Below, in pieces: positions 24,487-27,936 of a stretch of 37,778 nt of DNA (positions within the stretch are counted from its first letter, which is position 1; each line of letters opens with the position of its first letter). Source of the DNA: Gammaproteobacteria bacterium (lineage in GTDB: Bacteria; Pseudomonadota; Gammaproteobacteria; UBA6429; Thiohalophilaceae); the NCBI GenBank assembly GCA_022712915.1, contig JAFLJQ010000191.1:1-37778 (forward strand). The letters run 5' to 3'. The notes under the pieces were generated by a model. The model had not been told where the DNA came from. It did not search any database and saw only the letters and a list, made by a program, of their open reading frames with translations. A program made the translations under genes and the position numbers.

Positions 24487-25473
24487 ATGATGAAAAAAAT
24501 TCTTCTTGTTGATGATGAGCCCAACAACTTACAGTTGTTGAAGCAGATCCTAAAGGAACACTATCAACTCATTTTTGCCACCAGTGGGGAAAAGGCTCTT
24601 AGCGTGGTAGTCGAGCATGGCCCCGATCTGGTGTTGCTGGATATCATGATGCCGGGCATGAGTGGTTATGAAGTGTGTGAGAAGCTGAAGGCCAACCCTT
24701 CAACCACAAATATTCCGGTAATTTTTGTTACCGCCATGAGTGAAGTCGAAGATGAAGCCAGAGGCTTCGATGCCGGTGCGGTGGATTATATTCAAAAACC
24801 TGTATCAGGTGCCATCGTGTTACGGCGGGTGCAAACTCACCTGTCATTGGTACGGGCCAAAGAGCTCGATGATAATCAACGGGCGGCGATCTTTATGCTC
24901 GGTGAGGCTGGACACTATAATGATACCGATACGGGTGAGCATATCTGGCGAATGTCGGCTTATGCCCGTGCCATTGCCGAGGCAGCGGGATGGGATCATG
25001 ATATTGCTGAGCGCTTGGAACTGGCAGCACCCATGCATGATACGGGCAAGATTGGTATTCCTGATGAAATACTAAAAGCACCACGCAAACTGACACCGGA
25101 AGAATGGCAGATAATGAAAACCCATTCTGAAATCGGCAGCCGGATCCTCAGTATGAGTCGTAATCCTATTTTTAGTTTGGCAGCAGAAGTTGCACTTTAT
25201 CATCATGAGAAATGGGATGGCAGTGGATATCCCAAGGGCTTGTCTGGTGAGGATATTCCTGAATCTGCGCGCATTGTTGCTATTGCCGATGTGTTTGATG
25301 CACTGACCATGAAACGCCCGTATAAAGAGGCGTGGCCTCTGGAAAAGGCTTTTGCGACCATCAAACAAGATGCAGGTACACACTTTGATCAACAGCTGGT
25401 TAATCTTTTCATAGATATTCAGTCAAAGATTCTTCAAATCAAGGAAGAATGGGATGCCAAAGAGATATTGTAA
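24487..25473 (+). CDS. Response regulator with HD-GYP domain (RpfG type)
   Basis: 328 residues. The receiver (1-120) has the acidic pair D9/D10, phospho-acceptor D52 and K104. The HD-GYP domain (about 130-325) keeps the metal pair H184-D185 in MHDTGKIGIPD and HHEKWDGSGYP at 239-249, so it should hydrolyse cyclic di-GMP. It starts 10 bp after the hybrid kinase, from one of two adjacent ATG codons, and is its likely phosphorylation partner. Together they would turn the PAS signal into c-di-GMP breakdown. A bidirectional terminator follows. Confidence 0.95.
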   Translation: MMKKILLVDDEPNNLQLLKQILKEHYQLIFATSGEKALSVVVEHGPDLVLLDIMMPGMSGYEVCEKLKANPSTTNIPVIFVTAMSEVEDEARGFDAGAVDYIQKPVSGAIVLRRVQTHLSLVRAKELDDNQRAAIFMLGEAGHYNDTDTGEHIWRMSAYARAIAEAAGWDHDIAERLELAAPMHDTGKIGIPDEILKAPRKLTPEEWQIMKTHSEIGSRILSMSRNPIFSLAAEVALYHHEKWDGSGYPKGLSGEDIPESARIVAIADVFDALTMKRPYKEAWPLEKAFATIKQDAGTHFDQQLVNLFIDIQSKILQIKEEWDAKEIL

Positions 25474-25504
25474 TTTGTCGTTATGTTATTACCTGAGGTC
25501 ATAA

Positions 25505-25529
25505 AAAAGGCCTCTAAAAGAGGCCTTTT
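25505..25529. terminator. Bidirectional intrinsic terminator
   Basis: AAAAGGCCTCT, a 3-base loop, then AGAGGCCTTTT form a perfect stem with an A run on one side and a T run on the other. It lies in the 83-bp gap between the convergent HD-GYP and rpoH genes and can stop transcription from both sides. Confidence 0.93.
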
Positions 25530-25556
25530 CCAATAACTTAAAACAATATACTACGT

Positions 25557-26402
25557 TTACATTAAATTCGTTTTAAGCTTCTTAATGGCATTATTTTCCA
25601 ACTGCCGAATCCTTTCTGCTGAAACACTGTATTCATCTGCCAGTTCTTGCAGGGTCGTTTTATTGTCGGTTAACCAGCGACGTTGAACGATGTCGCGGCT
25701 GCGATCATCCAATGTGGCGATGGCGTTTTGCAGACGTTGGTTATTGTTTTCTTCCCAGTCACGGGCTTCCATCAGTTGCCCTGGCTCCTGTGAATTGTCT
25801 TGCAGGTAAGTGGCCGGTGAATAGCTGTGGTCGTCATCATCGTCACCGCGCAGGTCGAAAGCAATGTCCTGTCCAGTGAGTCGCGATTCCATTTCGCGCA
25901 CATCTTTGGTTGTGACGCCCAGATCTTCAGCCACGCCATTGATTTCATCGCGCGTGAACCAACCGAGTTGTTTCTTTGCGCTGCGCAGATTGAAGAACAA
26001 TTTGCGTTGTGCTTTAGTGGTGGCCACTTTGACAATGCGCCAGTTACGCAATACATATTCATGTATTTCTGCACGTATCCAGTAGACAGCGAAGGACACT
26101 AGACGCACGCCACGGTTTGGATCGAAGCGTTTGACGGCCTTCATCAAGCCGATGTTACCTTCCTGAACCAGATCGGCAACAGGTAGGCCGTAGCCACTGT
26201 AACTGCGGGCGACGTGGGCGACAAAGCGCAGATGCGACAGCACCAGCTCGCGGGCCGCTTCCAGATCGCCATCATTATGGAGGCGGTTGGCCAGCTCAGT
26301 TTCCCGTTCGGCACTGAGTACGGACACCCGACTGACAGCCTGCATGTAGGCATCCAGGCTACCTGTGGGAACTGCAAGTTGTAGGTCTAAGGTTTTGCTC
26401 AT
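25557..26402 (-). CDS. rpoH: RNA polymerase heat-shock sigma factor RpoH (sigma32)
   Basis: 281 residues from the ATG with GGGAG eight bases upstream; a longer frame would run through the promoter. Region 2 ([39 protein letters not shown]) is intact. The RpoH box QRKLFFNLR is at 132-140, the segment specific to this sigma factor. Region 4 ends in [17 protein letters not shown]. It directs transcription of heat-shock genes. It lies downstream of ftsX with a GGDEF gene inserted between. A CIRCE operator overlaps its promoter, which suggests control by HrcA. Confidence 0.97.
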
Positions 26403-26427
26403 AGTATCACTCCCGAAATTTTTCCTA

Positions 26428-26457
26428 ATATTAGCACTCTGCCCCTTTGAGTGCCAA
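26428..26457 (-). promoter_or_regulatory. Putative sigma70 promoter of rpoH
   Basis: Read on the minus strand, TTGGCA (26452-26457) and TAATAT (26428-26433) are separated by 18 bases, placing the start of transcription about 20 bases before the rpoH ATG. The CIRCE arms cover both elements and the spacer. Confidence 0.55.
26431..26457. promoter_or_regulatory. CIRCE operator upstream of rpoH
   Basis: TTAGCACTC, nine bases, then GAGTGCCAA. The CIRCE consensus bound by the HrcA repressor is TTAGCACTC-N9-GAGTGCTAA, so 17 of 18 arm positions match and the spacer is exact. It lies 28 bp before the rpoH start codon and overlaps the putative promoter. HrcA loses DNA binding on heat shock when GroEL is titrated, so rpoH would be derepressed then. 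No hrcA gene is in the window. Confidence 0.9.
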
Positions 26458-26515
26458 TCCTGGTAAAGGTTCAATTTGTAAACAATTTTAAAATGTTAAA
26501 AAAAACAAGTCATTA

Positions 26516-27874
26516 TCATGTCTGGATGATGCTTTCTTGCCGTGGGGCATCGACAATATCGTCATCTGTGTAGATACAGATCCGGTTGCGCCCCCGTTCC
26601 TTGGCGGCATTGAGGGCCTTGTCGGCATTTGCCAGGAATTGGCTAAGGTGTAAATTGGGGAAGTCGAGACTGGAGACCATGCCTATGCTGATAGTGATAT
26701 TTATGCCGACCGGGTGCAGGTCGGCGATGTCCTGGCGCAGTTTTTCTGCTTGCTGCATGGCCTGTTCGGTATGGGTGTTGGGCAACAAGATACTGAATTC
26801 CTCTCCGCCAAAGCGCACTACCATGGCATCTGGAAAGTGGTTATTCAGCAAGTCTCCTACTGCTGCCAGTACATGATCACCCATAATGTGACCTTTGCTT
26901 GTGTTTAACTGCCTGAAGTGGTCAATATCCAGCAATAATGCCCAGACCGGTTGTTGGTGACTGTCATGTAGATAATCCGGGCCATTATTAATTAGATAAT
27001 GTTTATTGCGTACGCCAGTGAGACTGTCGGTGGCGGCGATCCAGCGCATGGTTTCGGCTTGTTCTTTAATGGCACCGTGCTGGTGCTTGATGAGTAACAG
27101 GGTGCGCACCCGGGCGATGAGGATCTCCTCAATAATTGGTTTGTTAACATAATCATTTGCCCCGGCATGGAAAACCTCTATATGGGTCTTATCGTCATTA
27201 TTGCCGGTCAGTACCAGCACCGGTAGTTCTTGCTGTGACATATGCAGGGTGACGCGTATGGCGTACAGTAGGTCACCACCGGTCATTTTGCCTTCCAGAT
27301 AAAAGTCGGTGATCACCAGATCGATGGGGATTTGTGAGTGATTTCCACCGCTATCAGCGACATAAGACATGGCCTCTTCGGCAGTATTGACCCGTAATAC
27401 TGTCAGGCCATACTGGTCAAGGATTTTACCGGTAACGGCAGCAGCCGTGGCACTATCCTCAACAAATAGTATATGGCCGACCATGCCGGAGTGGCGCTGA
27501 ATAAAGCCTTTCACAAAACTGCCAAAGGCTTTGTAACCCTTGGATTTGTCAAAATAGTCGGTTATCCCGGCGGCGAAACCTTCATGTAGCAGACGTGTGT
27601 CGGCATCACCAGAAACAATGATGACCGGCACATAACTGAGTTCATTGGATTGACGTATCTTGCGGCACAGGGCCAAGCCGTCCATATCAGGCAGCACCAG
27701 GGCGGTGGAAAGCAGATCGAAGCGAGCCCCGGAAAGTTTTTGTAAGGCCTCCTTGCCGGATTCACAGGCCGTGACTTCTACATGGGGTAACTCTTGCAGT
27801 AGCGTTTTGGTCAGCAAGGCGCGAGTCACAGAAGAGCCATCAACAAGCAAGATGCGAATAGTTTGATTGGCCAT
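26516..27874 (-). CDS. Diguanylate cyclase response regulator, REC-REC-GGDEF
   Basis: 452 residues from the ATG at 27874; a GTG five codons earlier is possible. The first receiver (about 5-125) is degenerate: alanine (about A57, in LSTALVLPDMDG) replaces the phospho-acceptor aspartate, and the acidic pair is D-G. The second receiver (about 132-260) has VEDS, a phosphorylatable aspartate in VITDFYLEG and the lysine in VNKP. The C-terminal GGDEF domain has the active RFGGEEF loop, so it should make c-di-GMP. The RxxD inhibitory site is absent. It lies between ftsX (62 bp upstream) and rpoH, an unusual insertion into this conserved block. Confidence 0.92.
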   Translation of the reverse strand: MANQTIRILLVDGSSVTRALLTKTLLQELPHVEVTACESGKEALQKLSGARFDLLSTALVLPDMDGLALCRKIRQSNELSYVPVIIVSGDADTRLLHEGFAAGITDYFDKSKGYKAFGSFVKGFIQRHSGMVGHILFVEDSATAAAVTGKILDQYGLTVLRVNTAEEAMSYVADSGGNHSQIPIDLVITDFYLEGKMTGGDLLYAIRVTLHMSQQELPVLVLTGNNDDKTHIEVFHAGANDYVNKPIIEEILIARVRTLLLIKHQHGAIKEQAETMRWIAATDSLTGVRNKHYLINNGPDYLHDSHQQPVWALLLDIDHFRQLNTSKGHIMGDHVLAAVGDLLNNHFPDAMVVRFGGEEFSILLPNTHTEQAMQQAEKLRQDIADLHPVGINITISIGMVSSLDFPNLHLSQFLANADKALNAAKERGRNRICIYTDDDIVDAPRQESIIQT

Positions 27875-27936
27875 GCTTGGGATTGCCACCCTTGGTTTAA
27901 GTTAAGATTTAAAGCCAGTATCGGAAATATACGATA

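Follow-up and report, generated by a model that had tools for sequence, protein, structure and literature searches.

Teaching on the heat-shock response mostly presents its control as one of two distinct designs, repression by HrcA or activation by sigma32. The operator of the former, CIRCE, occurs generally at groESL and dnaK operons, and the operator described below, which lies before the sigma32 gene rpoH, has the same sequence and presumably the same repressor. A meeting of the two designs may already be on record: work of 2003 by Permina and Gelfand on the beta-, gamma- and epsilonproteobacteria may include cases of CIRCE before rpoH in the beta- or gammaproteobacteria.

In Geobacter sulfurreducens, a CIRCE before rpoH was predicted in 2004 (PMC545781, Table 8), so that the HrcA-rpoH link itself is not wholly new. 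That organism is, however, a deltaproteobacterium, the site is a prediction for one genome of the table, and the available excerpt of PMC545781 does not mention a nested sigmaE promoter at its rpoH. In E. coli, the P3 promoter of rpoH (GAACTT-N16-TCTGA, downstream of ftsX) is reported, in the excerpt available of PMC8103513, to be transcribed by RpoE; CIRCE was not seen in the 244-base stretch upstream of E. coli rpoH, and the control genomes in which HrcA was matched do not include E. coli. A search of the open literature (most subscription journals lay outside its scope) found no description of a rpoH promoter in which CIRCE and a sigmaE element are nested: the excerpts available of PMC3224663, PMC3135505 and PMC10696704 do not describe one, and PMC5343134 mentions neither HrcA, rpoH, CIRCE nor heat shock.

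The window, by which is meant the whole stretch of 37,778 bases that was analysed, carries the following features at and before rpoH:

25557..26402, minus strand: rpoH, heat-shock sigma factor sigma32, 281 aa (TIGR02392, 418.5 bits; cut-off 323.1)
26410..26414, minus strand: ribosome-binding site GGGAG, assigned by eye
26428..26433, minus strand: predicted sigma70 -10 element TAATAT, its TAA common with the 3' operator arm
26431..26457, minus strand: CIRCE operator (predicted HrcA binding site), coding-strand reading TTGGCACTC-AAAGGGGCA-GAGTGCTAA, 1/18 mismatch
26446..26450, minus strand: putative sigmaE-type -10 element TCAAA, 16 bp after the -35, in operator arm and spacer
26452..26457, minus strand: predicted sigma70 -35 element TTGGCA, formed by the 5' operator arm
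26467..26472, minus strand: putative sigmaE-type -35 element GAACCT, its GAAC conserved at this exact offset

The rpoH ATG at 26402 matches the start of the gene in relatives. Upstream, on the same strand, lie a gene for a PleD-like response regulator with a GGDEF domain (26516-27889), ftsX, ftsE and ftsY; the first of these separates ftsX from rpoH, whereas in E. coli ftsX lies directly before rpoH.

The palindrome, TTAGCACTC-TGCCCCTTT-GAGTGCCAA on the plus strand, occupies 26431-26457, lies 28 bp before rpoH and agrees with the CIRCE consensus (TTAGCACTC-N9-GAGTGCTAA, searched with few mismatches allowed) at 17 of 18 arm positions, with one mismatch. The original prediction had claimed just such a match immediately upstream of rpoH, and the match is indeed there; the span of 26428-26457 that it gave holds for the promoter but not for the palindrome, which begins only at 26431. 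It is the sole match in the window at up to three mismatches, the mean in shuffled sequence being 0.01 (n = 100).

The genome to which the window belongs (4.24 Mb in 274 contigs, 97.8% complete) provides the repressor and its standard targets. The hrcA gene and the groES operator that the original prediction had proposed to look for were both found: there is one hrcA match (PF01628, 217.8 bits; cut-off 22.2) and a perfect CIRCE before groES. The other perfect CIRCE precedes hrcA; the reading frames that come after hrcA look, by eye, like grpE, dnaK and dnaJ. At up to three mismatches there are three CIRCE matches in the genome, with 0, 0 and 1 mismatches, located at groESL, hrcA-grpE-dnaK-dnaJ and rpoH. 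As a control, the CIRCE pattern was reversed; at the same threshold it matched the genome 4 times on each strand, so loose matches alone mean little on this scale and the weight rests on the low mismatch numbers and on the places. The three places make the predicted targets of HrcA the two core chaperone operons plus the heat-shock sigma factor, which are also the three CIRCE targets given for Geobacter sulfurreducens in the excerpt of PMC545781. A different regulator acting at the rpoH palindrome was considered and rejected, given the one hrcA match and the perfect CIRCE found at each of two standard targets.

The conservation of the operator was followed at two depths. In a near set of 40 genomes, the window's own included, the region upstream of rpoH was readable in 35, of which 31 have CIRCE (up to three mismatches) before rpoH. 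The original prediction had proposed a comparison with relatives; in the window's family, every one of the 21 members that could be read (of 25, again with the window's own) has retained the palindrome upstream of rpoH. The arms of these rpoH sites are nearly invariant and spacer bases 12-17 are variable. The near-set genomes without an rpoH CIRCE are G026, G027, G031 and G037; the first three are also without an hrcA match, and G037 has one. Two genomes run counter to this: G011 and G029 have the rpoH CIRCE without an hrcA match and are 70% and 62% complete.

The wider sample consisted of 184 evenly drawn genomes of the class, at least 90% complete and mostly of different families, and hrcA was found in 133 of them. 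Of the 119 hrcA-bearing genomes examined, 113 have CIRCE (up to three mismatches) before rpoH and 6 do not; of the 34 examined that are without hrcA, 6 have it. This tally excludes 14/133 and 17/51 genomes, respectively, in which the place of rpoH was not listed, found or readable, and it scores as positive G056 and G184, which have two rpoH genes each, on the strength of one copy. The difference is large (Fisher's p ~4e-19, shared ancestry not being corrected for), with "without hrcA" meaning that there is no PF01628 match, which may reflect an assembly gap. From the reversed control, a chance CIRCE match in a 460-base upstream stretch is expected in about 4 of 10,000 cases. These counts, together with the promoter counts given below, are those of an operator that is close to the rule at rpoH among the examined genomes with hrcA, nesting with a sigmaE-like element being frequent but not universal. 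In both genomes with two rpoH genes (G056, loci L285 and L286; G184, loci L292 and L293), only one of the copies has CIRCE at up to three mismatches.

The hrcA-less genomes with an rpoH CIRCE are G040, G091, G107, G136, G143 and G206. The site has 0 or 1 mismatch in G040, G107, G136 and G143, and 3 mismatches in G091 and G206, which are of one genus. An assembly gap is possible for G040, since its relative in the same genus, G173, has hrcA. The other three with 0-1 mismatch (L254 in G143, L253 in G136 and L250 in G107) come from genomes that are 97-99% complete; here, a missing piece of assembly is possible, as is another protein that reads the site. Decayed remnants in some hrcA-less genomes, such as G091, G206 and G093, speak for taking the palindrome of the window as a relic, or as a product of chance, with no present role. 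Such a view is extremely improbable in the face of the chance expectation of 0.01 in the window, of nearly invariant arms and of the retention of the site in 21/21 readable family members and in 113/119 examined hrcA-bearing genomes of the class.

The predicted promoter into which the operator is set has two layers. Read on the minus strand, the first consists of TTGGCA (26457-26452), N18 and TAATAT (26433-26428), with a TG preceding the -10. A scan of 26350-26650 with the sigma70 consensus gave two sites tied at 9/12, as compared with 0.7 in shuffled sequence, and with a tied second site and this background the scan says little by itself. The second sigma70-like site, ATGACT-N17-TAAAAT (26513-26485, minus strand, 9/12), lies upstream of CIRCE. 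As to conservation, position 3 of the arm, where a G makes a better sigma70 -35, is G in 21/21 rpoH sites of the family versus 7/27 of the family's groES and hrcA sites, and the final T of TAATAT is kept in 21/21 family rpoH sites. The TTGGCA-N18-TAATAT promoter overlapping CIRCE, as originally proposed, is thus present and is supported by the conservation of the arm G and the final T. The groES genes of these genomes are arranged differently, in that CIRCE lies directly 3' of a sigma70-like -10 (a TTGACA-like hexamer is found at -27 in 20/23 groES sites), whereas at rpoH it lies between the -35 and the -10.

The second layer, which spans 26472-26446, resembles a sigmaE promoter. When the near-set sites are aligned on the operator, GAAC stands exactly 15 bp before it in 27/31 rpoH sites, and in 21/21 of those in the family, as opposed to 0/23 groES and 0/17 hrcA operators at the same offset (p ~1e-15; the control sites were labelled by tblastn and are those among the matches listed from the 40 near genomes). 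The -10 is of the form TCnAA, 16 bases after the -35 hexamer, its TC being the end of the operator arm. Within the spacer, positions +10 and +11 are A in 95% and 90%, respectively, of the 21 family rpoH sites, a conservation that groES spacers do not have. The copy in the window, GAACCT-N16-TCAAA, is degenerate and weaker than that of E. coli P3, with which it shares the N16 spacing, but its position is strongly conserved in relatives. The same spacing recurs before rpoE in the window's genome (GAACTT-N16-TCTTA). This rpoE codes for a true RpoE (TIGR02939, 315.6 bits; cut-off 236.15, which 1 of 14 control genomes passes) and has beside it reading frames that, by eye, resemble RseA and RseB; the RpoE model also matches other loci of the genome less strongly, which suggests that further ECF sigma factors are present. 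GAAC is missing at the offset in 4/31 near-set rpoH CIRCE sites. In one genome, G034, rpoH is preceded by a tandem CIRCE (L069; starts 32 bp apart, one copy perfect and the other with 1 mismatch), and GAAC is absent there at the usual offset.

The original reading of an HrcA operator on a sigma70 promoter therefore stands as far as it goes, but it is incomplete, having missed this conserved sigmaE-type element. Its central claim, HrcA control of the sigma32 gene, is supported, at the level of sequence, by the presence of hrcA, by the perfect CIRCE sites at the chaperone operons and by conservation. Neither of the outcomes that the original prediction had named as refuting it, an absence of hrcA from the genome or a loss of the palindrome in relatives, was observed. 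Since the operator also overlaps the sigmaE-type element, the node may join three inputs.

How widely this composite of GAAC-type element and CIRCE is distributed was assessed in the class sample and in public genomes. In the class, the composite (up to two mismatches) is present in 69/184 genomes, including 68 of the 133 with hrcA, so that 65/133 are without it; the backwards control of the composite gave zero matches among the class rows listed. Of these 69 composites, 67 are correctly oriented upstream of rpoH, and the distance to the gene is 29-195 bp in 64/64 genomes with listed rpoH coordinates; in G127, G158 and G166, the position before rpoH was confirmed by tblastn. In G106, the palindrome precedes a partial rpoH and the composite match is on the opposite strand.

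The exact pattern GAACYY-N9-TTRGCACTC-N-AA-N6-GAGTGCTA was also scanned for in about 85,000 genomes of bacteria and archaea from a public collection, which may omit records of the window's genome. The scan gave at least 118 stretches, 80 of which were listed and read. With the RpoH of the window as tblastn query, rpoH was found directly downstream in 78 of these 80 listed loci (two of the assignments, L120 and L163, being short matches at record ends), which makes the composite a concise marker by which rpoH promoters can be recognised in sequence. The two others are L164, whose record ends at the match, and L180, a Peregrinibacteria record in which the composite precedes a Clp ATPase-like frame, named by eye. 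The titles of the records listed include gamma- and betaproteobacteria, among them Alcanivorax, Thioalkalivibrio, Woeseiaceae, Chromatiales, Arenimonas, Methyloversatilis, Deefgea, Gallionellaceae and Nitrosovibrio, and the nearest locus among the matches listed, L141, has an RpoH with 86% identity and the title "Gammaproteobacteria bacterium". Some other titles look doubtful: three metagenome-assembled records with the composite, L170, L172 and L173, are titled Bordetella parapertussis or Klebsiella pneumoniae and have RpoH proteins 56-61% identical to that of the window. A contig titled Verrucomicrobia also has the composite (L123; RpoH 57% identical) and is possibly mis-binned or transferred.

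The sigma70 layer can also be followed in 79 named composites among the matches listed. TAnnnT occurs in 77/79 of these, versus 3/23 groES and 9/17 hrcA sites, although TA is fixed by the search pattern, so that only the final T serves as a test; the commonest hexamer over the 3' arm is TAAAAT (45 of the 79 listed). At the 5' arm, TTAG is commoner outside the family, in 58 of the 79 named composites among the matches listed.

A follow-up concerned 48 rpoH upstream regions from hrcA-bearing genomes without a composite match at rpoH. CIRCE is present in 41 of them, and a sigmaE-like match in 26 (shuffled rate 5%), leaving 22 with none. In the 41 with CIRCE, a sigmaE-like -35 lies 14-17 bp before the operator, hence nested, in 11 cases and 28-42 bp before it, upstream of the operator, in 10. 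Among 31 rpoH regions from genomes without hrcA, sigmaE-like matches occur in 14, against a shuffled rate of 7%; a few of these matches are distant from the gene.

The 22 regions of 48 without a sigmaE-like match bear on a simpler explanation, in which only the sigma70 promoter is real and repressed by HrcA, and GAAC is some other conserved signal. The deviation of the window's GAACCT/TCAAA from the GAACTT/TCTGA of E. coli P3 would fit such an explanation, as would the weaker RpoE-model matches in the genome, which suggest other ECF sigma factors. It is nevertheless unlikely, for GAAC at its fixed offset is found in 27/31 rpoH sites against 0/40 controls, GAACTT-N16-TCnnA stands both before the rpoE of this genome and before E. 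coli rpoH, and a sigmaE-like element is retained in genomes with neither hrcA nor CIRCE, namely G026 (by eye), G168, G170, G172 and G178.

Another possibility is based on RNA. In other bacteria, CIRCE has been suggested to act as a hairpin that governs mRNA stability, and the palindrome of the window might likewise be a 5' hairpin that sets the stability of rpoH mRNA. An inverted repeat could fold in this way if it were transcribed whole, for example from the sigma70-like site at 26513-26485. The predicted starts, however, are in the spacer for the sigmaE-type promoter and past the palindrome for the sigma70 promoter, so that, to judge from this layout, neither transcript would contain both arms. 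Moreover, the enrichment of the site in hrcA-bearing genomes points to a protein partner, and a search of 25400-26700 against Rfam for a thermosensor returned nothing at the gathering score, with no family over the palindrome. The hairpin is therefore very improbable. It appears likely instead, as far as sequence can tell, that the palindrome functions as an operator through which HrcA represses a compound rpoH promoter made of nested sigmaE- and sigma70-type elements.

In other bacteria, HrcA needs GroEL for its activity. If this carries over, as the analogy with those systems suggests, GroEL would be the signal at rpoH too. In unstressed cells, GroEL would keep HrcA active and rpoH low. HrcA on its predicted operator would then block both the sigmaE-type promoter, the -10 of which lies inside, and the sigma70-type promoter, the -35 and -10 of which lie over the arms; overlapping elements of both, the operator would place HrcA for steric exclusion of the two. 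Misfolded proteins would occupy GroEL, HrcA would fail and groESL, hrcA-grpE-dnaK-dnaJ and rpoH would be released together, after which sigma32 would amplify expression of the chaperone genes and the additional GroEL would re-arm HrcA. Envelope stress could drive the same rpoH promoter via sigmaE, gated by HrcA. One short stretch of DNA may thus merge three stress signals at rpoH, with HrcA binding, the start sites and repression being predicted from the arrangement of the elements.

The distribution of the elements also invites a broader and more tentative proposal, for which the balance falls slightly short of even. The HrcA-gated, nested sigmaE/sigma70 promoter of rpoH might be the ancestral heat-shock control in the gamma- and betaproteobacteria, of which the bare sigmaE P3 of E. 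coli would be a remnant after the loss of HrcA. In most such families, the transcription of rpoH would then be the first point at which the chaperone load is read, within a coherent feed-forward loop (HrcA repressing both rpoH and the chaperone operons that are targets of rpoH) fused with envelope stress. Should the HrcA-gated rpoH promoter itself prove real, many gamma- and betaproteobacterial families would run HrcA and sigma32 as one circuit, envelope stress would often enter as a third input within the same 45 bases, rpoH control in E. coli would be a derived special case and the regulation of rpoH would need re-examination in the lineages that bear hrcA. The hrcA-less genomes that have a sigmaE-like element without the operator fit a loss of the operator after that of the repressor. 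In two further hrcA-less genomes, G093 and G207, a TTGGCACTC half-arm is found at the proper place after GAACTT.

Another arrangement of the module was observed in G088 (L271, G088:C8:47700-48900), where a composite of GAACTT and CIRCE precedes a clpB-like reading frame, named by eye. The rpoH of this genome is without CIRCE, and it looks as though the module had been transferred to a different heat-shock gene.
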